Below, one piece after another: positions 26,336 through 35,933 of a DNA stretch of 51,660 bases (position 1 is its first letter; every line of letters begins with the position of its first letter). Source of the stretch: Phaeobacter sp. J2-8 (GTDB taxonomy: Bacteria > Pseudomonadota > Alphaproteobacteria > Rhodobacterales > Rhodobacteraceae); assembly GCF_022867865.1 (NCBI RefSeq), contig NZ_JALIEC010000015.1:1-51660 (forward strand), read 5' to 3'. The notes under the pieces were generated by a model, which saw nothing but the letters and a program-made list of their open reading frames with translations, was not told where the DNA came from and did not search any database. Both the position numbers and the translations under genes were made by a program.

Positions 26336-27274
26336 TCAGAACGCGACCCTGTCGCCACCTTTCAGGTCAAGCATTTCGCGCGCTTCATCCGGTGTCGCGA
26401 CCTCACATCCCAGCGCCTCTACGATCTTGCGAATTTTGGCCACTTGCTGGGCGTTGCTTTCCGCCAGTTTCCCGCGCGAGATAAACAAGCTGTCTTCTAG
26501 CCCGACACGCACGTTGCCGCCCATCTGGCTGGCGGTGGTGCCCAGCGACATCTGCGATCCGCCAGCGCCCAGAACCGACCAGCGGTAATCGTCACCAAAC
26601 AGACGGTCAGCGGTGCGTTTCATGAAGATCAGGTTATCAATCTCGGGGCCGATACCGCCCAGAATGCCAAAGATGAACTGAATGAACACCGGCGCCTTGA
26701 ACAGCCCGATATCCATACAGAATTTCAGGTTATAGAGATGGCCCACATCATAACATTCATGTTCGAACTTGATGTCATGCGGTGCCAGGGTTTCGGCCGC
26801 TTCCTTGATATCGCGAAAGGTGTTGCGGAAAATGTTGCCGTCGGAATTGGCGACATAGTCCTTTTCCCAATCAAATTTCCAATCATCGTCGTTGTAGCGT
26901 TTCGCCAGCGGATGGAACGAGAAGTTCATGCTGCCCATGTTCATAGAGCACATTTCCGGACTGAAGGTCTTGGCCGGAGTGATACGCTCCTGGATCGACA
27001 GTGTCAGCGAACCGCCGGTCGAAATATTCACCACCGCGTCGGTTGCTTGCTTGATCCGGGGCAGGAAGGGCGTGAAATCCTTCACATCAACCGACGGCGC
27101 GCCGGTTTCGTTGTTCCGCGCATGCAGGTGCAGGATCGACGCCCCTGCCTCTGCCGCTTCCATCGCCTGGGTTGCGATATCGTCATAGGTATAGGGCAGC
27201 GCGTCTGACATGGTTGGCGTATGGATTGCCCCGGTGATGGCGCAGGTGATGACCGTCTTTTTCTGGCGTGCCAT
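26336..27274 (-). CDS. Beta-keto acid cleavage enzyme (BKACE, DUF849)
   Basis: 312-residue TIM-barrel enzyme. BKACE enzymes condense a beta-keto acid with acetyl-CoA, releasing acetoacetate and a new acyl-CoA. The zinc-binding HLHARN motif is His49-x-His51, preceded by AITGAIHTPTMS; NISTGGS, FEHECYDVGHLYN and GGIGPEIDNLIFMKR are typical. It is the last of ten minus-strand genes, four bases after livM. The operon also encodes two dehydrogenases able to form a beta-keto acid, so this enzyme is probably the carbon-cleaving step. The exact keto acid is unknown; carnitine-derived 3-dehydrocarnitine is one candidate. Confidence 0.9.
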   Translation of the reverse strand: MARQKKTVITCAITGAIHTPTMSDALPYTYDDIATQAMEAAEAGASILHLHARNNETGAPSVDVKDFTPFLPRIKQATDAVVNISTGGSLTLSIQERITPAKTFSPEMCSMNMGSMNFSFHPLAKRYNDDDWKFDWEKDYVANSDGNIFRNTFRDIKEAAETLAPHDIKFEHECYDVGHLYNLKFCMDIGLFKAPVFIQFIFGILGGIGPEIDNLIFMKRTADRLFGDDYRWSVLGAGGSQMSLGTTASQMGGNVRVGLEDSLFISRGKLAESNAQQVAKIRKIVEALGCEVATPDEAREMLDLKGGDRVAF

Positions 27275-27277
27275 GGA

Positions 27278-28315
27278 TCAGGTTCCTTTGGTTTTGTCTG
27301 TGTTGGCAGGCGCAATGACGCGGTATCCCAGCGGAAAGAGTTGAAGATCGAAACGGCTGCGGATCAGGCCCCAGATCCCTTTGGGCGCTTTCAGCATCAT
27401 CACGATGGCCACCAACCCCAAAACGATCAGATAAATGGTGCCAAGGTCAGCAAGCGTTTCGCGCAGCGCGAAAAACACAAGCGTTCCGATGATCGGGCCC
27501 TCGATTGTGCCAATGCCGCCGATCACCACGATAAAGATCACAAAGGCAGTCCAGTCATTGACGCTAAAGGCGGCATCGGGCGAAATACGCAGCTTTTGCA
27601 GGAAGATCAGGGCGCCGATCATGGCCGTCAGCGCCGAGGTGACCACATAAACGGTGAATTTTGTGCGCCAGATGTCGATCCCGAGGCTGCCGGCCGCCAA
27701 TTCATTGTCCCGGATTGCGGTCAGGGCAAGCCCCTTGCGCGAGCGCAGGAACAGATAAACAGCGGTGATGACCAGAACAGCCGCGCCCAGCGCCAGCCAA
27801 TAGCTCAAGGATTCACGCATCGCGCGTTTCGAGGCGAGGGATTTCACGATCGCCACCGGCAGGGACGACCCCGAACCGCCCCCCAGTGACGAAATCTGGG
27901 CAAAGCCCAACCGAAAGACTTCGGCGATTACCCAGGTTCCGATGGCGAAATAGGCCCCGCGCAGACGGAAGATCAACACAGCAATAGGCACCGAGATCAG
28001 CGCACCAAGCACGCCGGCCATTGCGATGGCCGCAATCGGAGGCAGGCCTGCGAATATGGTCAGGGCAAACAGCATGTAGCCGCCAAACCCGACAAAGGCC
28101 TGCTGCCCAACTGAAACCAGCCCGGCATATCCCGCCATCAGGTTCCACAGTGACGCCAGCGCCAGATAAAGAAACATCTCGCCCAACAGGCGCATGTCGG
28201 CGCGCCCCGCCCACCATGGGGCCGCGATAAGCACAACAAGGACAAGTGCACCAAGGATCGCGGCCATGCGGGCGGCCCCGGAGGTTCGGGTGACGTGGTA
28301 ATCCTGAATATTCAT
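27278..28315 (-). CDS. livM: Branched-chain-type ABC transporter permease LivM
   Basis: 345-residue inner-membrane permease with about eight to nine hydrophobic helices. Signatures: NLMAGYAGLVSVGQQAFVGF, RGAYFAIGTWVIAEVFRLGF, RSRKGLALTAIRDNELAAGS and GGIGTIEGPIIGTLVFFALR. ATG 28315 overlaps the livH stop by four bases. The upstream-extended frame to 28465 lies inside livH and is rejected. Forms the channel with LivH; substrate likely the organic acid or amide that the operon degrades. Confidence 0.95.
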   Translation of the reverse strand: MNIQDYHVTRTSGAARMAAILGALVLVVLIAAPWWAGRADMRLLGEMFLYLALASLWNLMAGYAGLVSVGQQAFVGFGGYMLFALTIFAGLPPIAAIAMAGVLGALISVPIAVLIFRLRGAYFAIGTWVIAEVFRLGFAQISSLGGGSGSSLPVAIVKSLASKRAMRESLSYWLALGAAVLVITAVYLFLRSRKGLALTAIRDNELAAGSLGIDIWRTKFTVYVVTSALTAMIGALIFLQKLRISPDAAFSVNDWTAFVIFIVVIGGIGTIEGPIIGTLVFFALRETLADLGTIYLIVLGLVAIVMMLKAPKGIWGLIRSRFDLQLFPLGYRVIAPANTDKTKGT

Positions 28316-29174
28316 GCCGCGATCCTTGGGAAAAGGCCGTTGGGACGAACGGCGAGGATTAAGAGAAAGGCGATATGCCCGGCCAGAAGCTGCCAGCCGG
28401 GGTCGATCTTGGCGCCGATGGTCTGTGCCACGCCAAGAATGACACCCCCAGCCAATGTGCCCCAAAGATTGCCAAGCCCGCCGATGATCACGGCCTCGAA
28501 GCCAAAGATCAGACGCCCGCCGCCGATCGAGGGGTCAAAGCTGGTGCGGATGCCCAGAAAATCCCGGCAATGGCGGTGACCCCAAGCGCCAGCGCCATGG
28601 CCAGCCCAAAGATATGCCGCCGGTTCAGCCCCATCAGCTGTGCGATATCCTGATTGTCGGATACGGCGCGAAAGGCACGGCCGAGCGCGGTATGATAGAA
28701 GGTCCATTGCAAGCCCCAGATCACCGCGATGGCCACCGCAAAGGTCAGAACCGGCAGCACACCCAGCGTCAGCCCCCCGGCCGAAAAGCTGGCCGTTTCA
28801 AGCGCCCCGGCAGCCATCTTCTGGGGGTCGGCGGAATAGACTTCGAGCAGGGCATTCTGAAGGATCACGCTTAGCCCGAATGTGACCAGAAGCGGCGGCA
28901 AAAGGTCATCCCCCAGGGTTTTGTTCAGCAACCCGCGTTGCAGCGCATACCCGATCAGCGCCATGGTCGGCACGACCAGAACCAAGGCCAGCAAGGGATG
29001 CAGACCGGTGGCGGTGGTGACAGTCAGCCCCAGATAGGCGGCCAGAACGATCAGATCGCCATGGGCAATGTTGACCAGACGCATCACACCAAAGATCAGC
29101 GACAACCCCGCCGCAAACAGGGCATAGAGACCGCCAAGCAGGGTGCCTTGTACAATTGCATTCAGCCAGTCCAT
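28312..29174 (-). CDS. livH: Branched-chain-type ABC transporter permease LivH, frameshifted
   Basis: Second permease, 287 residues when corrected. First frame: GTLLGGLYALFAAGLSLIFG, MRLVNIAHGDLIVLAAYLGL, then AIAGIFWASAPALT and a stop. The next frame continues FLGIRTSFDPSIGGGRLIFG and GLGNLWGTLAGGVILGVAQT, which is the true end. One G is missing on the plus strand near 28557 (CAGAAAA instead of CAGGAAAA), so TTCCTG is read TTCTG. As written the importer would lose its last third, including the EAA loop. Surrounding genes are intact, so an assembly error is more likely than decay. Confidence 0.9.
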
Positions 29175-29175
29175 G

Positions 29176-29883
29176 TCATTCTATCCCGAAATAGGCGCGA
29201 GAGATGTCATCGCGCGAAACCTTGTCCGCGTCGCCTTCCAGCGACACACGACCCTCTTGCAGGCAATACACCCGGCTGCTGACAGACAGCGCCTTGGTGA
29301 TGTCCTGTTCGACAATGATGGCGCTCATGCCCTCGCCGATGATGCCCGGCAGGGCGTCGTAGATGTCCTTGATGATGATCGGGGCCAGCCCGAGGCTGAT
29401 TTCGTCGAACAGGATCAGATCGGGGTTCGCCATCAGCGCACGGCCAATGGCCACCATCTGCTGTTGCCCGCCAGAGAGCGAGGTCGAGGCCTGATCCTTG
29501 CGTTCTTCGAGGATCGGAAACAGCTTGTAGACCGCGTGAATGTCCCAGGGCCCCTTGCGCCCGACCTGTGCGCCAATCATCAGGTTTTCCCGCACCGACA
29601 GCGATGGAAAAAGCTGCCGCCCCTCCGGCACCATCGCCAGCCCCCGCGCGGCGACCTCGTCTGCCCGCAGGCGGCTGATGTCCGTGCCGTGATATTTGAT
29701 CTGGCCGGGACCGTTGCGCAAAAGCCCGGTGATTGACCGCATCAGGGTGGTTTTCCCCGCGCCATTTGCACCGATGATGGCCAGGATTTCGCCTTCGGAA
29801 ACGGCCATGTCGACGCCATAAAGCGCCTGAAAATCCCCGTAATGGGCATCAAGCCCCTGCATCTGAAGAATGGGTTCAGGCAT
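29176..29883 (-). CDS. livF: ABC transporter ATP-binding protein LivF
   Basis: 235-residue cytosolic ATPase of the branched-chain type. Walker A GANGAGKTT, signature LSGGQQQM, Walker B LILFDEISLGLAP, and the LivF-type MVPEGRQLFPSLSVRENL. ATG 29883 overlaps the livG end by eight bases, giving MPEPILQMQGLDAHYG; the longer frame to 29955 is not used. Energises the LivHM importer with LivG. Confidence 0.95.
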   Translation of the reverse strand: MPEPILQMQGLDAHYGDFQALYGVDMAVSEGEILAIIGANGAGKTTLMRSITGLLRNGPGQIKYHGTDISRLRADEVAARGLAMVPEGRQLFPSLSVRENLMIGAQVGRKGPWDIHAVYKLFPILEERKDQASTSLSGGQQQMVAIGRALMANPDLILFDEISLGLAPIIIKDIYDALPGIIGEGMSAIIVEQDITKALSVSSRVYCLQEGRVSLEGDADKVSRDDISRAYFGIE

Positions 29884-30604
29884 CGGCTTCAATCCCCAGA
29901 TAGATTTCTTTGACTTCCGGGCTGTCCATGATCGCCTGTGGGTCGCCCTCGGCAATCTTTCTGCCGAAATCGATCACGATCAGCCGGTCAACCACGGCAA
30001 GCAGCGCATGCACCACATGTTCGATCCAGATGATGGTCACGCCCGAGGCATGGATGTCCTTGATGGTCTGAACCAGCGACCGGCACTCGGCCTCGGTCAG
30101 CCCACCCGCGATTTCGTCAAGCAACAGCAACTTTGGCATCGCACAGAGCGCCCGCGTAAGTTCCAGCCGTTTGCGCCCCAGCAACGTCAGACCGCCGGCC
30201 ATGGTATTGGCCTTTGACAACAGCTCGGTCTTTTCCAACACCTCAAGGCAAAGCTGCTCTGCCTCTGGGCCGCGCAGGCCAGCCGATTGGGTGGCCGCAA
30301 TCATCGCATTTTCAAACACGGTCATATTGGAAAACGGCTGTGGCACCTGAAAGGATCGCGCAATGCCGGAATGGCTGCGTTTTGCCGCGCTCCAGCCGGT
30401 GACGTTCTGCCCGGCAAATTCCACGGTCCCGGCATCGGGTGACACGGTTCCGGTGATCAGGTTGAACATCGACGTCTTGCCAGCCCCGTTCGGGCCGATC
30501 ACGCCCAGTGCTTCGCCTTCGGCCACTTCATAGCTTTGCCCATCGGCAACCTTTACGGCGCCGTAAGCTTTGCAAAGGTTGTCGAGTTTCAGAATGGTGT
30601 TCAT
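29876..30604 (-). CDS. livG: ABC transporter ATP-binding protein LivG
   Basis: 242-residue ATPase, partner of LivF. Walker A GPNGAGKTS, Q-loop region GIARSFQVPQPFSNMTVFEN, signature-region TLLGRKRLELTRAL, Walker B LLLLDEIAGGL. Start at 30604 (MNTILKLDNLCKAYGAVKVA) follows the binding-protein gene by 48 bases. Signature LSGGQ is replaced by the LivG-type GRKRLE form, as normal for this subunit. Confidence 0.95.
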   Translation of the reverse strand: MNTILKLDNLCKAYGAVKVADGQSYEVAEGEALGVIGPNGAGKTSMFNLITGTVSPDAGTVEFAGQNVTGWSAAKRSHSGIARSFQVPQPFSNMTVFENAMIAATQSAGLRGPEAEQLCLEVLEKTELLSKANTMAGGLTLLGRKRLELTRALCAMPKLLLLDEIAGGLTEAECRSLVQTIKDIHASGVTIIWIEHVVHALLAVVDRLIVIDFGRKIAEGDPQAIMDSPEVKEIYLGIEADA

Positions 30605-30652
30605 TCTAGTCCCCTTGGGTGGTGAGCGGTGCAACCGCACCGCTCATACGCA

Positions 30653-31936
30653 TCAGCCAAGCAATTTCAGATCGCCGGTCAACGGAATGTCCGGCGCCGC
30701 CGAATTGGCCACGATCTTCAGATCAAAGGAGTCGCCCTCTTTTTGCCATTGGCCGGCAACCAGCGGCGTCTTGGTGACATTGTTGATCGGGCCATTTGCC
30801 CAGTTCACATTGCCAACAATGGTGTCGAGGTTGGTTCCAGCGATGGCCGCGACGATGGCCTCGGGATCTTCCAGATCTTCGGACCGCTTCATTACATCTG
30901 CCACCACTTCGAACAGCGCGTGTTTAAAGCCGATCGGCTGGGTCCAGGGGCGGCCGGAAGCCGCAGAATAGCCTTCGGCCAGTGCCTTGGACGATGCCCC
31001 CGACAACGAGGACGAGAAGGGATGGTTTGGGGACCACCAAACCTCGGACGACAGACCGTCGCCCCGATCCCCAAGCAATTCAATCACCGACGGGAACAAC
31101 AGCGCCTTGCCGATTGTCACAACTTTGGGGGTGAACCCCTGTTGCGCGGCCTGGCTCCAGAAGGTCGCAAAATCGGGGGCGATCATGTTGCCTGTGACAA
31201 TCTCGCAGCCCGCCGATTTGAATGCGGCGATCTGGTTCGAAAAATCATCCGACGGCGGCTGATAACGGCCCGGATCAATGAGGTCATAGCCCGCTGCGGC
31301 CAGCGGCGTGGGCAGGCCCAGCTCTGGATGGCCCCAGGCGTTGCCGTCCGCGTCGTTCGGAAACAGCCCGCCGACGGTCTTGGCCGCGCCCGATTGCCCC
31401 CACATGTCAAGGAACGCGCCGATCACGTCCTCAAGCCCCCAGAAGAAATGATAGGTCGAGGCGAACCCCTCTCCCGGGACACCATTGCGGCCAAAGAAAT
31501 AAGGCTGCCATGGGCAATCGGTGGTGATGCAGGGCACTTCGTTCACTTCGGCCTGATCGCTGACCGGGTTGACCGTGTCCGGGGTCGAGGCGGCGACGAT
31601 AATATCGACCTCATCCCCCAGAATCAGGTCTGCGGCCACTTCGGCAGCCCGGTTCGGGTTCGACTGGCTGTCCTTCGAGATGATTTCGACATTCCAGCTT
31701 TTGCCGTTGTTTTCGATGCCGCCCGCAAACACCTTTTCGATGCCTGCCAGCACATAATCATCGGCCTCGGCAAATCCTGCCAGGGGTCCGGTGCGGGGGC
31801 TGACATGGCCGATGCGCAACGTGGGGTTGGCGGCATAGGCGCGCGTGGCGCTCAGCAATGCCGGGGTGGCCAATGCGGCTGCGGCCCCTCCCAGGAAACC
31901 GCGCCGGGTTGGGCGTTGTTTGATGATCTTTGACAT
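30653..31936 (-). CDS. ABC transporter substrate-binding protein, branched-chain amino acid type
   Basis: 427-residue periplasmic binding protein (Peripla_BP_6) with a twin-arginine signal (PTRRGFLGGAAAALATPALL, SATRAYA). Mature sequence opens NPTLRIGHVSPRTGPLAGFA and contains ISKDSQSNPNRAAEVAADLI, TPDTVNPVSDQAEVNEVPCI and WWSPNHPFSSSLSG. The ligand pocket is not assignable; this branch binds aromatic or amide compounds and carboxylic acids as often as amino acids. It sits in the middle of the catabolic operon and likely captures its substrate. Confidence 0.93.
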   Translation of the reverse strand: MSKIIKQRPTRRGFLGGAAAALATPALLSATRAYAANPTLRIGHVSPRTGPLAGFAEADDYVLAGIEKVFAGGIENNGKSWNVEIISKDSQSNPNRAAEVAADLILGDEVDIIVAASTPDTVNPVSDQAEVNEVPCITTDCPWQPYFFGRNGVPGEGFASTYHFFWGLEDVIGAFLDMWGQSGAAKTVGGLFPNDADGNAWGHPELGLPTPLAAAGYDLIDPGRYQPPSDDFSNQIAAFKSAGCEIVTGNMIAPDFATFWSQAAQQGFTPKVVTIGKALLFPSVIELLGDRGDGLSSEVWWSPNHPFSSSLSGASSKALAEGYSAASGRPWTQPIGFKHALFEVVADVMKRSEDLEDPEAIVAAIAGTNLDTIVGNVNWANGPINNVTKTPLVAGQWQKEGDSFDLKIVANSAAPDIPLTGDLKLLG

Positions 31937-31975
31937 TTCTTCCTCCCTTTCATCGGCTTTTCGCCGACCAATCGT

Positions 31976-32905
31976 TTAATCGTCGAGAATGGTCCCCAGT
32001 TTGTTCAGATGGCTGGCAACACGCGCACGCACGGCATCAGCGTCTTCTTTGGTCCATTTCCGAAAACCTTCGCCCGATTTCATCCCCAAGCGCCCGTCTT
32101 CGACGAGCTTTGCAAGATAGGGTGACGGTCCTTTGCGGCTTTCGAGGTCGTGCAGAACGTTTTCGTGGATATCGAGCGTCAGGTCGGTGCCAACCAGATC
32201 GGCGTTTTCCAACGGGCCAAGAACGGCAAGGCGGCGACCAAAACAGGACTTTACAACCGTATCGACATCTTCTGCTTCGCAGATCCCGTTTTCGACCAGG
32301 CTCACGGCCTCGCGCCAGAGGGCGTGCTGCAACCGGTTTCCGATGAACCCGGGCACGTCTTTTTCGACCATCACCGGCGTTTTGCCGGCATCGGCCAGCA
32401 GATCAAAGATGGTCTTTGCAACGGTGGGGTCGGTCCATTCGGTTTTGACCACCTCGACCAAGGGGATCATATGTGGCGGATTCCACCAATGGGTGCCCAC
32501 AGCGCGGTTTTTCAACCGCAGCTTCGACATGATCTGCGTGATCGGCATGACAGATGTGTTCGACGCCAGGATACAGCTGTCTGGCGCGTGCTGCTCAACT
32601 TCGGCAAAGATCTGTTGCTTCAGCGCCAGCTTTTCCGGCGCAGCCTCGAACACGACATCCGCCTGCCGCACCGCACCCGCGGTCGAGTTGAACACCTCGA
32701 TCATCTTCATTGCCTTGGCGGCGGTCTTTTCGTCGTCGCCCATGGCCTCCATACTCTGAAGGATGCGATCGACAACCGATGCGCGGGCCTCTTCGAAAGG
32801 ATCGGTGATGGCCACATATTGCCCGGCCTTGGCCAGGGTCAGCGCAATGCCATGCCCCATAAGGCCGGCACCGATCACCGCGATCTGCTGTTTCTTGGCA
32901 ACCAT
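31976..32905 (-). CDS. 3-hydroxyacyl-CoA dehydrogenase family protein (carnitine-dehydrogenase-like)
   Basis: 309-residue NAD-dependent beta-hydroxy acid dehydrogenase. Rossmann loop GAGLMGHGIA (10-19), then FEAAPEKLALKQQIFAEVEQ, ILASNTSVMPITQIMS, GTHWWNPPHMIPLVEVV (catalytic His region) and the C-terminal dimer domain with GFIGNRLQHALWREAVSLVE. Stand-alone rather than fused to enoyl hydratase, which fits small-acid oxidisers (L-carnitine, 3-hydroxybutyrate, gulonate) rather than fatty acid oxidation. In this operon it would make the beta-keto acid for BKACE. Confidence 0.9.
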   Translation of the reverse strand: MVAKKQQIAVIGAGLMGHGIALTLAKAGQYVAITDPFEEARASVVDRILQSMEAMGDDEKTAAKAMKMIEVFNSTAGAVRQADVVFEAAPEKLALKQQIFAEVEQHAPDSCILASNTSVMPITQIMSKLRLKNRAVGTHWWNPPHMIPLVEVVKTEWTDPTVAKTIFDLLADAGKTPVMVEKDVPGFIGNRLQHALWREAVSLVENGICEAEDVDTVVKSCFGRRLAVLGPLENADLVGTDLTLDIHENVLHDLESRKGPSPYLAKLVEDGRLGMKSGEGFRKWTKEDADAVRARVASHLNKLGTILDD

Positions 32906-32908
32906 GCT

Positions 32909-33703
32909 TCAGCCCGCCGTATAGCCACCGTCAGCATACAGAATATGCCCGGTGTAAAAATCAGAGGCTTTTGAGGCCAGGAACAACAAGGGGCCGGCGA
33001 GGTCTTCGGGTTCGCCAAGACGGCCCTTGGGCACACGGGCCAGGAAACCATCCCTGACCTTCTTTGCCTCGTCCGTGTCGGCGAACATCCAGGCGGTCAA
33101 AGGCGACCGGAACACGGTCGGCGCGATGGCATTCACGGTGATGCCGGACGGCCCCAATTCACATCCCAACGCCTTTGTCAGACCGTCGGTCGCGGCCTTG
33201 GACGCGCAATAGGCGGTATAACCGGCCGGATGTCCCAAAAGCCCCCTTGCAGAGGAGACCAGAACAATCTTGCCGCTGCCCTGCTGTTTCATCTGTCCCG
33301 CGGCGGCACGGGACAACAGCCAGGTTTGATTGACGTTGGCATCCATGACCGATTGAAAGGTTTCGGGCGTCATGTCGTTGATCAGCGCGACTTTGTTCAT
33401 CCCCGAGGCCACCACCAGAATATCCAGCCGGCCATAAGCTTCGACCGCTTGGGCGACCAACCCGTTACAGATGTCTTCATCCGTGGGGCGGGTGTTGATG
33501 GCGGTCACCTCTGCGCCCATGCTGCGGCATTCGCCGGCAATCTCGTCCAGCGCGGTCTGGTTGCCGGCAACCAGCACCAGCTTGCAGCCGGCACCGGCCA
33601 AAATGCGCGCCGCGACCATCCCGAATGCGCCAGAGGCCCCGGTGATCAAGGCGGTGTTGTCTTTGACGTCGAACATGGACAGTGGGTTTTGCATGACATT
33701 CAT
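32909..33703 (-). CDS. Short-chain dehydrogenase/reductase
   Basis: 264 residues of classical SDR: cofactor loop TGASGAFGMVAARIL near residue 20, NVNQTWLLSRAAAGQM, catalytic Ser in VLVSSARG and Tyr/Lys in YTAYCASKAATDGL. Start 33703 and stop 32909 leave three bases to each neighbour. Interconverts an alcohol and a ketone with NAD(P). A second dehydrogenase besides the adjacent hydroxyacyl-CoA-type enzyme suggests two oxidations or two stereoisomers. Confidence 0.92.
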   Translation of the reverse strand: MNVMQNPLSMFDVKDNTALITGASGAFGMVAARILAGAGCKLVLVAGNQTALDEIAGECRSMGAEVTAINTRPTDEDICNGLVAQAVEAYGRLDILVVASGMNKVALINDMTPETFQSVMDANVNQTWLLSRAAAGQMKQQGSGKIVLVSSARGLLGHPAGYTAYCASKAATDGLTKALGCELGPSGITVNAIAPTVFRSPLTAWMFADTDEAKKVRDGFLARVPKGRLGEPEDLAGPLLFLASKASDFYTGHILYADGGYTAG

Positions 33704-33706
33704 AAG

Positions 33707-34051
33707 TCAGGCCTCCGCAGGATAGGGGATGACAACCAGCATCTTGCTGGTCAGGTTCGTCCGGTTTTCCAAAAGGCGGATTTCGCCGGCTGGAATGGTG
33801 CAGCTGTCCAATGGGCCCAGAACGGTCGCTTCGCCGTCGATGGTCACTGTCATCTCGCCCTCGAGCACGACGTAAACCTTTTCAAACGGTGTGGAATCCG
33901 GCCCCGCGCCGCCACCGGGAAGGAATTGACTGAACCCAACCCATTGGTTGGTTGGCCCGCCTTCCTCAAACCCCTGCAATCGAAGTCCGTGACAGCCGAA
34001 ATGATTTGCGGCCTCATAAGGCTGGGCATCGTGAAAGCGTTTAAGGTGCAT
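33707..34051 (-). CDS. Cupin-domain protein
   Basis: 114-residue single cupin: FLPGGGAGPDSTPFEKVYVV is motif 1 region and LGPLDSCTIPAGEIRLLEN is motif 2 region. Metal-ligand histidines of motif 1 are largely replaced (no clear G-x5-HxH), so it may bind a ligand rather than act as a dioxygenase. It sits between the cyclase gene and the SDR gene, three bases from the latter. It may be an isomerase, a lyase-like step or a binding accessory. Confidence 0.8.
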   Translation of the reverse strand: MHLKRFHDAQPYEAANHFGCHGLRLQGFEEGGPTNQWVGFSQFLPGGGAGPDSTPFEKVYVVLEGEMTVTIDGEATVLGPLDSCTIPAGEIRLLENRTNLTSKMLVVIPYPAEA

Positions 34052-34124
34052 GGAAATCTCCTCGGGCGTGTCGGAAGTGGGGCTGAAAATGGTCGCCGGT
34101 CCCCCGGCGACCAGTCAGGGAGGA

Positions 34125-34961
34125 TCAGAAGTCGGCGCCATCGTCGATGCGGAAGCCCTGGCTCTTGTCCATCATCGCCACGAGGCGAATGATGCAACCG
34201 TCGCCGCGGTCCCAGTTCCAGGGGAAGAACGCAAAGGTACAGCGCTTGCCGGTCACGGCATCAAGATCACCGCCGACGTTTTCAATGCCCAGAATACCGT
34301 TTTTGAACAGGATGTTATGAACCGGTTCCCACTCTGGAAAGGCGACGTCCCACGGAATACCGCCGGACCATTCGAGGTATTCCTTCTCCAGATGCGGCAA
34401 CAGCGGGCCGTTCCGCTGTGGGCCGATGGCGGTGGCCAGCGGGTGGTCATTGGCCTGGGTGTCGTGGCCGACAACCTTGATGCCCTTTTCCACCATCCAC
34501 TCTGCCGCTGACGGCACCAGCCCAGGGCAATAGGCAAAGTAGTCACCATCCTCATAGTCATGGTGCCAGCCGGTGTTGATGATCAGAACGTCCCCCTTGC
34601 GGATCGCTTGACCACAGGCTTTTTCCAGGTCGTCTGCGGTGATCTGTTCCCATTTCTTCTTTGGGATCGAAACAACCAGCCCGGTGCCAAAGAAATGCGG
34701 CAGCGGCACTTCGTCGATGAACGGCGTGCCCTGCACCACATGCGCCGGGGCGTCGATATGGGTGGTGGCGTGCATCGTGGTGGTGATGCGTTGGCTCAGC
34801 ACACCGGATTTCGCCATGTAGTGGATGCGCTCGATCTTGGTGTCCTGAAAATAAGGCCAGTTCGGGTTCTGGAACCCAAAGCGGTGGCTGAGATTGTAGA
34901 ACTCCAGTCCCATGTCGTTGTCGGTGTTCGATTGGAACTCGATGCCACGGATTTCAACCAT
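34125..34961 (-). CDS. Cyclase-family (kynurenine formamidase-like) hydrolase
   Basis: 278 residues of PF04199 type. The metal-binding motif is HATTHIDAPAHVV (the H-x3-H-x-D-x-P-x-H pattern). VLIINTGWHHDYEDGDYFAY and VVGHDTQANDHP are further family segments. These metal-dependent enzymes hydrolyse amides or cyclic imides and lactams (N-formylkynurenine, isatin). Start 34961 is chosen because GAGGAG lies nine bases upstream (MVEIRGIEFQSNTDND); ATG 34970 is less well placed. First gene of the ten-gene operon, so it probably opens a ring or cleaves an amide in the incoming substrate. Confidence 0.9.
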   Translation of the reverse strand: MVEIRGIEFQSNTDNDMGLEFYNLSHRFGFQNPNWPYFQDTKIERIHYMAKSGVLSQRITTTMHATTHIDAPAHVVQGTPFIDEVPLPHFFGTGLVVSIPKKKWEQITADDLEKACGQAIRKGDVLIINTGWHHDYEDGDYFAYCPGLVPSAAEWMVEKGIKVVGHDTQANDHPLATAIGPQRNGPLLPHLEKEYLEWSGGIPWDVAFPEWEPVHNILFKNGILGIENVGGDLDAVTGKRCTFAFFPWNWDRGDGCIIRLVAMMDKSQGFRIDDGADF

Positions 34962-35056
34962 TGGACACATCTCCTCTGTTCGCCGGAATCCCGGCGTTTT
35001 CGATTTTAAACTGTCAGGATGGCTCCTCCACCTGTCCCGCATATTGATGCACATGC

Positions 35057-35069
35057 ACCGCATTGCGGT
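35057..35069. promoter_or_regulatory. Putative IclR operator 1
   Basis: ACCGCATTGCGGT is a perfect palindrome (6-bp arms, one central base) in the 216-base gap between the divergent cyclase operon and iclR, about 96 bases upstream of the cyclase start. Confidence 0.55.
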
Positions 35070-35082
35070 CAATAAAAATATT

Positions 35083-35112
35083 CACGATGCGGTTGACATG
35101 TATCGCATTGTG
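35083..35112. promoter_or_regulatory. Putative IclR operator 2
   Basis: CACGATGCG (35083-35091) and CGCATTGTG (35104-35112) are 9-bp arms with one mismatch and a 12-base centre that includes GTTGACA. It shares the ATGCGG/CCGCAT element with operator 1 thirteen bases away. Confidence 0.5.
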
Positions 35113-35177
35113 GGACACTGATTGAGTAATCACATCCCGCAACCCGCGCCGCAATTACCGATGGGGACACCCTGTAT

Positions 35178-35933
35178 ATGTCTGAAGACAAGACGAAAAA
35201 TGATAGATCCGGCATCCAGGTGATCGCCCGCGCGGCCTCGATACTCAGGGTGTTGAAGGATGCTCAATCGGGTATGAGCTTGGGGAAAATTGCCGAGCTC
35301 GCCGATTTGCCCCGCTCTACGGTACAGAGAATCACCGGCGCATTGGCAGAGGAAAACTTTGTCATCAGCGATATGCAGGGGGGTGGGCTGCGGCTGGGTC
35401 CAGAGCTCAGCACGCTGGCGGGGGCGGCGCATTACAACATCGTCGAACACTGCCGTCTGCTCTTGACCGAACTGACACAGAAAACAGGAGAAACGACTGA
35501 TCTGGCGGTGATGCGCGGCATCGGCATGGTGTTTCTGGATCAGGTGCCGGGAACGCATCGGCTGACCACGGTTTCCAAAGTTGGCGAGGTTTTTCCCCTG
35601 ACCACGACGGCCAATGGCAAAGCCTGCCTTGCGATGATGGATCAGGAAGACGCCATCAAGCTGATCCGCAATGAATGGGATCGCAATGGGGTGACACAGG
35701 ATCTGGCGCAGTTTCTTGCGCAACTTGAAGAGATCCGGAACTGCGGCCTGGCCTATGACCTTGACGAACATGCCTCTGGTGTTTCGGCGATTGGATTTGC
35801 CTTCCGGGATTGGGGCGGCGACCTGCATGCCATATCGGTCCCGGTGCCATCAACGCGTTTTGGCGACCAAATGAAGACGATTGAAAATGCGCTTATCGAC
35901 ACCAGCGCCAACATTCAGCGCACATTCGAGTAG
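35178..35933 (+). CDS. IclR-family transcriptional regulator
   Basis: 251 residues: winged-helix domain with GMSLGKIAELADLPRSTVQR, then an effector domain (TGETTDLAVMRGIGMVFLDQ, FPLTTTANGKACLAMMDQED, YDLDEHASGVSAIGFAF). Divergent from the ten-gene cyclase-to-BKACE operon and separated from it by two inverted repeats, the standard layout for an IclR regulator of a neighbouring catabolic operon. Effector unknown, likely the substrate or first intermediate. Confidence 0.94.
   Translation: MSEDKTKNDRSGIQVIARAASILRVLKDAQSGMSLGKIAELADLPRSTVQRITGALAEENFVISDMQGGGLRLGPELSTLAGAAHYNIVEHCRLLLTELTQKTGETTDLAVMRGIGMVFLDQVPGTHRLTTVSKVGEVFPLTTTANGKACLAMMDQEDAIKLIRNEWDRNGVTQDLAQFLAQLEEIRNCGLAYDLDEHASGVSAIGFAFRDWGGDLHAISVPVPSTRFGDQMKTIENALIDTSANIQRTFE

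Follow-up and report, generated by a model that had tools for sequence, protein, structure and literature searches.

Phloroglucinol (1,3,5-trihydroxybenzene) degradation has been rebuilt in vitro with four purified enzymes from Clostridium scatologenes, which convert phloroglucinol, via dihydrophloroglucinol, (S)-3-hydroxy-5-oxohexanoate and 3,5-dioxohexanoate, to acetoacetate and acetoacetyl-CoA (Zhou et al. 2023, PMC10470551). According to the main text of that study, the enzymes belong to the short-chain dehydrogenase/reductase (SDR), 'cyclase', 3-hydroxyacyl-CoA-dehydrogenase (3HCDH), and beta-keto acid cleavage enzyme (BKACE) families, and the cluster is stated to be present also in marine alpha- and gamma-proteobacteria. 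Here, we analyzed a ten-gene operon with a divergent iclR gene in a 51,660-nucleotide stretch of DNA from Phaeobacter sp. J2-8 (contig NZ_JALIEC010000015.1; hereafter, the window) and consider it, with a probability of roughly 85%, to be a phloroglucinol catabolic operon. Because Zhou et al. rebuilt the pathway and report the cluster in marine alphaproteobacteria, both the route and its occurrence in this kind of bacterium are already known. The initial sequence-only reading had taken the operon for a complete new degradation route and had named a match to a characterized pathway as what would undo that claim; the C. scatologenes pathway, as described in the main text of PMC10470551, is such a match.

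The ten genes are encoded on the minus strand, from 34961 to 26336, in the order cyclase, cupin, SDR, 3HCDH-family dehydrogenase, binding protein, livG, livF, livH, livM and BKACE, with spacings along the direction of transcription of 73, 3, 3, 39, 48, -8, 1, -4 and 3 bases (taking the livH end at 28312, in its second frame). The order, strand and family assignments initially read for these genes and for iclR hold, as does the largest gap, the 73 bases between cyclase and cupin. The BKACE passes the NCBI model NF053538 (3,5-dioxohexanoate:acetyl-CoA acetone transferase) with 535.6 bits against a cut-off of 430, a model match rather than an assay, and stays below the cut-offs of the lysine-fermentation (235.5 versus 382) and 3-oxoadipate (162.2 versus 350) models. 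The best solved match of the SDR is 5g4k (171 bits; 102 of 250 aligned residues identical, 41%), which the search names merely as an SDR and which we take to be the Clostridium phloroglucinol reductase; the two proteins have in common the stretches AGYTxYCxSK and PTVFRSxLTxWMF, neither of which is found in the next two proteins of the match list. In the dehydrogenase, the catalytic Ser118, His139 and Asn190 are retained in all 85 aligned sequences. Among solved structures, 4om8 comes closest (190 bits); its name points to a pyridine-carboxylate substrate instead of a CoA ester. The C. scatologenes dehydrogenase is described as lacking the CoA-binding Lys56 and Asn221 (PMC10470551, main text); the loop of the present enzyme differs, reading FGRRLAVLGP with R225 in 85/85 sequences, as seen in an alignment that holds no Clostridium reference. 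Finally, the PF04199 enzyme, the only match to this family in the whole genome, carries W22 (99/99 aligned sequences) and Y24 (96/99; numbered from 34922), corresponding to the W-x-Y pair that, in CsDPGC, takes the place of the isatin-hydrolase Ile/Leu (PMC10470551, main text). By analogy, it would cut a C-C bond in a retro-Claisen reaction, not an amide.

Relatives of these genes are consistently linked. Locus counts were drawn from the best 80 of at least 507 relatives (at least 586 stretches) in a scan of named genome contigs; by title, nearly all 80 are alphaproteobacteria, and the counts are no measure of wider spread. Among the 67 loci with room, the cyclase was found in 67, the dehydrogenase in 66, the SDR and the cupin in 65 each, LivG and LivF in 64 each, LivH, LivM and IclR in 63 each, the binding protein in 62, and BKACE in 58. 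Gene order is conserved in the relatives, where iclR is likewise divergent from the cyclase gene. The neighborhood comparison that had been proposed for the cyclase, BKACE and IclR genes bears out a single conserved operon. The operon resembles the C. scatologenes PGR-DPGC-TfD-TAL system, as presented in the main text, in the presence of four enzyme families in one cluster, the proposed order of reactions, and the diagnostic cyclase and dehydrogenase residues. The four chemical steps were demonstrated for C. scatologenes; for the present operon, we infer these steps, like all other functions, from family membership, diagnostic residues and gene linkage.

The proposed pathway would start with uptake of phloroglucinol or a close derivative by the Liv-type ATP-binding cassette (ABC) importer. 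The SDR would act first, reducing the keto tautomer of phloroglucinol to dihydrophloroglucinol, which the PF04199 enzyme would open by hydrolytic C-C cleavage to (S)-3-hydroxy-5-oxohexanoate. The 3HCDH-family enzyme would then oxidize this free acid to 3,5-dioxohexanoate, and BKACE, with acetyl-CoA, would split the latter into acetoacetate and acetoacetyl-CoA. CoA-transferases and thiolases encoded elsewhere would carry these products to acetyl-CoA; in the genome, three scoB-family and eight thiolase matches exceed the cut-off. The pathway would need no oxygen. The cupin would act together with the reductase, its most likely targets being tautomeric forms of dihydrophloroglucinol or of the trihydroxybenzene, and control would be exerted by the IclR protein at the two putative operator copies. 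An outline of import, ring opening by hydrolysis, beta-hydroxy acid oxidation and BKACE cleavage to acetoacetate and an acyl-CoA (here, acetoacetyl-CoA) had been envisaged from the start and is retained.

Several observations weigh against this assignment. The likeness to the C. scatologenes proteins was established through families, models and residues, without direct alignment. In contrast to the major facilitator superfamily (MFS) transporter of the C. scatologenes cluster described in the main text, the present operon has a Liv-type ABC importer, and it also departs from that cluster in encoding no thiolase or CoA-transferase; it adds, furthermore, the IclR regulator and the cupin. The BKACE has Ile17 (68 of 69 aligned sequences, with Met in one) at the position of CsTAL Trp16, which stands where Kce has Glu14 (PMC10470551, main text); Glu is absent from the present enzymes too. 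The relative from Acetoanaerobium noterae (Clostridia) has Trp at this position, is only 35% identical to the BKACE of the window, and belongs to another subfamily. The SDR reads AGN where 5g4k has TGRN, without the arginine that is part of the NADPH-binding TR(S/N) motif of the C. scatologenes reductase (PMC10470551, main text); Arg is present in 1 of 95 aligned sequences, and the A. noterae SDR has TGRT. A BKACE relative of the window type is not within reach in 9 of the 67 loci, the C. scatologenes in vitro reaction needs no cupin (PMC10470551, main text), and the cupin is without a known role. PF18089, a phloroglucinol-releasing enzyme acting upstream, gave nothing in the genome, although the search controls gave nothing either.

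With respect to BKACE, the scores against NF053538 are 228.1 bits for A. noterae and 181.1 bits for Mycobacterium riyadhense, whereas the proteins of two other loci pass (L020, 503.9; L030, 545.9), so that two BKACE subfamilies seem to serve the same step. The present BKACE is of the NF053538 subfamily, with Ile replacing Trp. The main text of Zhou et al. 2023 (PMC10470551) describes no Liv-type importer, IclR operator, Trp-less BKACE, arginine-less SDR or cupin. Among the matches listed from open-licence literature, no study of this gene cluster other than Zhou et al. 2023 was apparent by title or abstract, those on phloroglucinol degradation in Rhodobacteraceae were unrelated by the same measure, and, of those listed since 2023, 'dihydrophloroglucinol cyclohydrolase' occurs only in Zhou et al. 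2023. The new content is real but modest and consists of the importer, the operator, the subfamily swaps and the unassigned cupin.

The substitution in the SDR bears on the cofactor balance of the pathway. The dehydrogenase has Asp35 in 82 of 85 sequences and Glu in the remaining three, and NAD-type enzymes carry an acid at the equivalent position. Given this acid and the missing NADPH arginine of the SDR, the reductase and dehydrogenase steps could share one cofactor pool, although the AGN stretch of the SDR contains no acidic residue either. The C. scatologenes enzymes differ in cofactor, with NADPH used by the reductase and NADH preferred by the dehydrogenase (PMC10470551, main text).

Of the 80 loci, 74 could be judged for cupin and SDR, and in 73 of these the two genes are immediate neighbors on the same strand. 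The remaining locus, L090, has neither: both are absent between cyclase and dehydrogenase (L090:10001-11891), and the locus contains no N. In 68 of these 73 loci, no more than 400 bases separate the cupin from the cyclase ahead of it; because the cupin-SDR pair stays together in the other five as well, we link the cupin to the reductase. The two genes are also adjacent in the A. noterae cluster and in L030; in M. riyadhense, the cupin lies between cyclase and BKACE, and in L024 and L033, it is apart from the SDR. Clusters from Pseudomonadota, Bacillota and Actinomycetota, three phyla in all, contain the cupin, which is directly beside the reductase in those seen of the first two.

With an AlphaFold2 model of the cupin (pLDDT 95.0, pTM 0.86, 49 sequences), Foldseek retrieved variants of the single-domain cupin TM1459 as the best matches (TM-score 0.84), with RemF (0.83) and KdgF (0.73) at lower ranks. 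The four histidines of the TM1459-type metal site are not found in the cupin: in a profile alignment, the ligand positions H52, H54 and H58, known from the entry titles, and H92, which we take to be the fourth, correspond to Asp52, Thr54, Lys58 and Arg92. With these positions replaced, a metal at the usual cupin site is unlikely. Lys58 is kept in 93 of 95 sequences and Arg92, His17 and Tyr60 in all 95; in a wider set of 38, His17, Tyr60 and Arg92 are invariant. The cupin may be an accessory enzyme that has been overlooked, perhaps a tautomerase working without a metal. The word 'cupin' is absent from the main text of Zhou et al. 2023 (PMC10470551), a check that did not extend to figures and supplements, and nothing in open-licence literature joined 'phloroglucinol degradation' with cupin.

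Combining these strands yields a specific proposal that we put forward tentatively and consider, as a whole, rather unlikely: the cupin would be a metal-free keto-enol tautomerase (with the conserved His17, Lys58, Tyr60 and Arg92) and the fifth enzyme of the pathway, supplying the reductase with the keto form of phloroglucinol or handling dihydrophloroglucinol tautomers; the reductase, devoid of NADPH specificity, would draw on one NADH/NAD+ pool with the dehydrogenase, so that, unlike in C. scatologenes, the ring would be opened without net reductant; and uptake would proceed through the dedicated ABC importer. A further context for this type of cupin comes from five clusters on Rhizobiales and Skermanella plasmids (L119-L123), in which relatives of the cupin (41-48% identity) are encoded together with a BKACE and an SDR. 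These clusters differ in containing an intradiol dioxygenase, along with a zinc-binding alcohol dehydrogenase in four of the five, and no cyclase or 3HCDH relative was found in them; the two BKACEs tested, from L119 and L120, are under the NF053538 cut-off. They would represent a second setting for the cupin, with polyhydroxybenzenes and beta-keto acids.

Variation of the operon itself was observed in several loci. In L024:11153-17100, L033:8382-17778 and L037:7723-11285, two PF04199 cyclases in tandem (41-51% identity to that of the window) are encoded with an SDR, a dehydrogenase and a cupin; these stretches yielded no BKACE relative. A fumarylacetoacetase-family gene adjoins the L024 cluster and an enoyl-CoA-hydratase-family gene the L033 cluster, so that the final cleavage may proceed differently there. 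In two other loci, the importer and BKACE genes are replaced, after the dehydrogenase, by an amidohydrolase (PF04909; L075:12900-13874) or an intradiol dioxygenase (PF00775; L108:12900-13766). Genes for metallo-beta-lactamase (MBL)-fold hydrolases are inserted, at differing positions, in the operons of Pacificitalea manganoxidans (L018:12873-13856) and Aminobacter sp. MSH1 (L019:15364-16332). In a plasmid of Rhodobacteraceae bacterium SC52 (L025:12001-13065), only the first 99 cyclase residues match (37% of the cyclase) and are followed by an IS5-family transposase.

Such variants are relevant to the alternative that the same chemistry acts on an acyl-, alkyl- or carboxy-phloroglucinol or another meta-trihydroxybenzene, with the cupin and the divergent SDR adapting the operon to its substrate. 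Tandem-cyclase clusters and the amidohydrolase or dioxygenase genes after the dehydrogenase would be in line with a modified substrate, as would the departure of the SDR and BKACE from the Clostridium type at positions named in the main text of Zhou et al. 2023. However, the BKACE passes a model for the unsubstituted 3,5-dioxohexanoate and the W-x-Y pair of the cyclase is conserved, and we regard a derivative as improbable compared with phloroglucinol itself.

Two alternatives posit different chemistry. The amide or lactam substrate initially favored, with PF04199 hydrolyzing an amide, cyclic imide or lactam ahead of oxidation and BKACE cleavage in a new route, draws on the membership of formamidases and isatin hydrolase in PF04199 and on weak matches of the cyclase to kynurenine formamidases (E 5.9e-5 to 3.1e-4). 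It was abandoned as very improbable: the arylformamidase model TIGR03035 gave 48.1 against a cut-off of 223.05, and an amide would leave unexplained both the phloroglucinol-reductase motifs of the SDR and a BKACE of the 3,5-dioxohexanoate type. Carnitine degradation uses a pair of dehydrogenase and BKACE, and the operon could be a variant thereof, with the dehydrogenase acting on carnitine and BKACE on dehydrocarnitine, had both carnitine dehydrogenase models not failed (152.6 versus 592 and 127.2 versus 414 bits) and were there a role for the cyclase, SDR and cupin. The initial judgment that the substrate is not carnitine is, accordingly, upheld, and this is the least credible of the readings considered.

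Returning to the phloroglucinol operon, its distribution is patchy. At E 1e-40, three genomes of a class sample of 289 have cyclase relatives, as do six of a set of 61 relative genomes; both counts include the own genome, and one of the six has only the 46-51% type. Within the genus, the cyclase is present in one of three other genomes and, in a phylum sample (E 1e-30), in 8 of 398, again including the own genome and one case at only 35% identity. Eight plasmid records match the cyclase. This patchiness and the plasmid occurrence suggest horizontal movement of the operon. By name, the host records include Ruegeria, Roseibium, Tateyamaria and SAR116. Farther afield, A. noterae (a 2.6-Mb record listed as plasmid; L118:8971-13592) has consecutive genes for relatives of the cupin, SDR, dehydrogenase, cyclase and BKACE, and then a gene resembling DAPG (2,4-diacetylphloroglucinol)/phloretin hydrolase with 22.1 bits, just below the cut-off of 22.7.

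Between iclR and the cyclase gene, an 18-base sequence is present in two copies, 45 bases apart and 83% alike. These had been described as two inverted repeats; the repeats are real and exceed what shuffles produce, but they are direct copies, of which the first contains a perfect inverted repeat. A 17-mer from copy 1, allowing up to four mismatches, has a site in 62 of the 83 intergenic regions between iclR and cyclase, that of the window among them, compared to 1.15 on average and 4 at most when shuffled 20 times. Two or more sites are present in 35 of the 83 regions, compared to none in the shuffles; with up to five mismatches, the commonest spacings were 44 and 43. Part of this excess reflects the relatedness of the intergenic regions by descent. 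The IclR protein is predicted to bind these putative operator copies.

The gene models are compiled in Table 1. The cyclase start at 34961 was set by homology to a Pacificitalea manganoxidans protein (278 aa; 94% identity over 278 residues), and livM, starting at 28315, encodes 345 aa. The livH gene, initially read as intact, is split relative to Pacificitalea livH over frames -2 (28515-29174) and -1 (28318-28560). Because thiolase genes (contigs C1, C11, C15 and C16) and one BKACE gene (C1) of the same genome likewise lie in neighboring pieces, the split is more probably an assembly indel than a real lesion. Among the six BKACE matches in the genome, two overlap at a single site, as the two halves of a gene would. 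The flanking genes tested have no link to the operon: on the left, glcF and glcE (glycolate oxidase subunits) and DUF599, and on the right, a response regulator, a CysZ/EI24-type gene and a nitroreductase. No solved relative of the binding protein was found at E 1e-5. Neither the promoter scan (1 versus a shuffle mean of 3.4) nor the terminator scan (14 versus 10.9, sd 3.5) went beyond shuffles, and no Rfam family matched.

Table 1. Operon genes, divergent regulator gene and candidate operator sites in the window.
Feature	Position	Strand	Basis
PF04199 'cyclase', proposed dihydrophloroglucinol cyclohydrolase	34125..34961	-	PF04199 118.2 bits; W22/Y24 pair; start by homology
Small cupin, proposed partner of reductase	33707..34051	-	Cupin_2 41.2 bits; SDR adjacency; model pLDDT 95.0; metal-ligand positions replaced
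SDR, proposed phloroglucinol reductase	32909..33703	-	Best solved match 5g4k 171 bits; shared motifs
3HCDH-family enzyme, proposed (S)-3-hydroxy-5-oxohexanoate dehydrogenase	31976..32905	-	PF02737 180.8 bits, PF00725 79 bits; Ser118/His139/Asn190
Periplasmic binding protein, Liv-type ABC importer	30653..31936	-	PF13458 136.8 bits
livG-type ATPase	29876..30604	-	PF00005 and PF12399
livF-type ATPase	29176..29883	-	PF00005 107.7 bits
livH-type permease, frameshifted between about 28515 and 28560	28312..29174	-	Two pieces versus intact Pacificitalea livH
livM-type permease	27278..28315	-	PF02653 108.7 bits
BKACE, proposed triacetate (3,5-dioxohexanoate) acetoacetate-lyase	26336..27274	-	PF05853 347 bits; NF053538 535.6 bits
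IclR-family regulator, divergent	35178..35933	+	Best NCBIfam match BhcR 111.1 bits, under cut-off 350
Candidate operator copy 1, inverted repeat ACCGCA-T-TGCGGT	35051..35068	.	Repeat analysis and intergenic scan
Candidate operator copy 2, degenerate	35096..35113	.	83% identical to copy 1; second site in intergenic scan

Overall, the supposedly new route can now be named and tested as a pathway of a widespread group. Phloroglucinol is a building block of tannins and the unit of brown-algal phlorotannins, and the host bacteria mostly live with oxygen; the operon may, thus, provide them with an oxygenase-free route for algal phenolic carbon. The cofactor change offers a simple prediction, and, as a possible missing component of the pathway, the cupin makes a concrete candidate.

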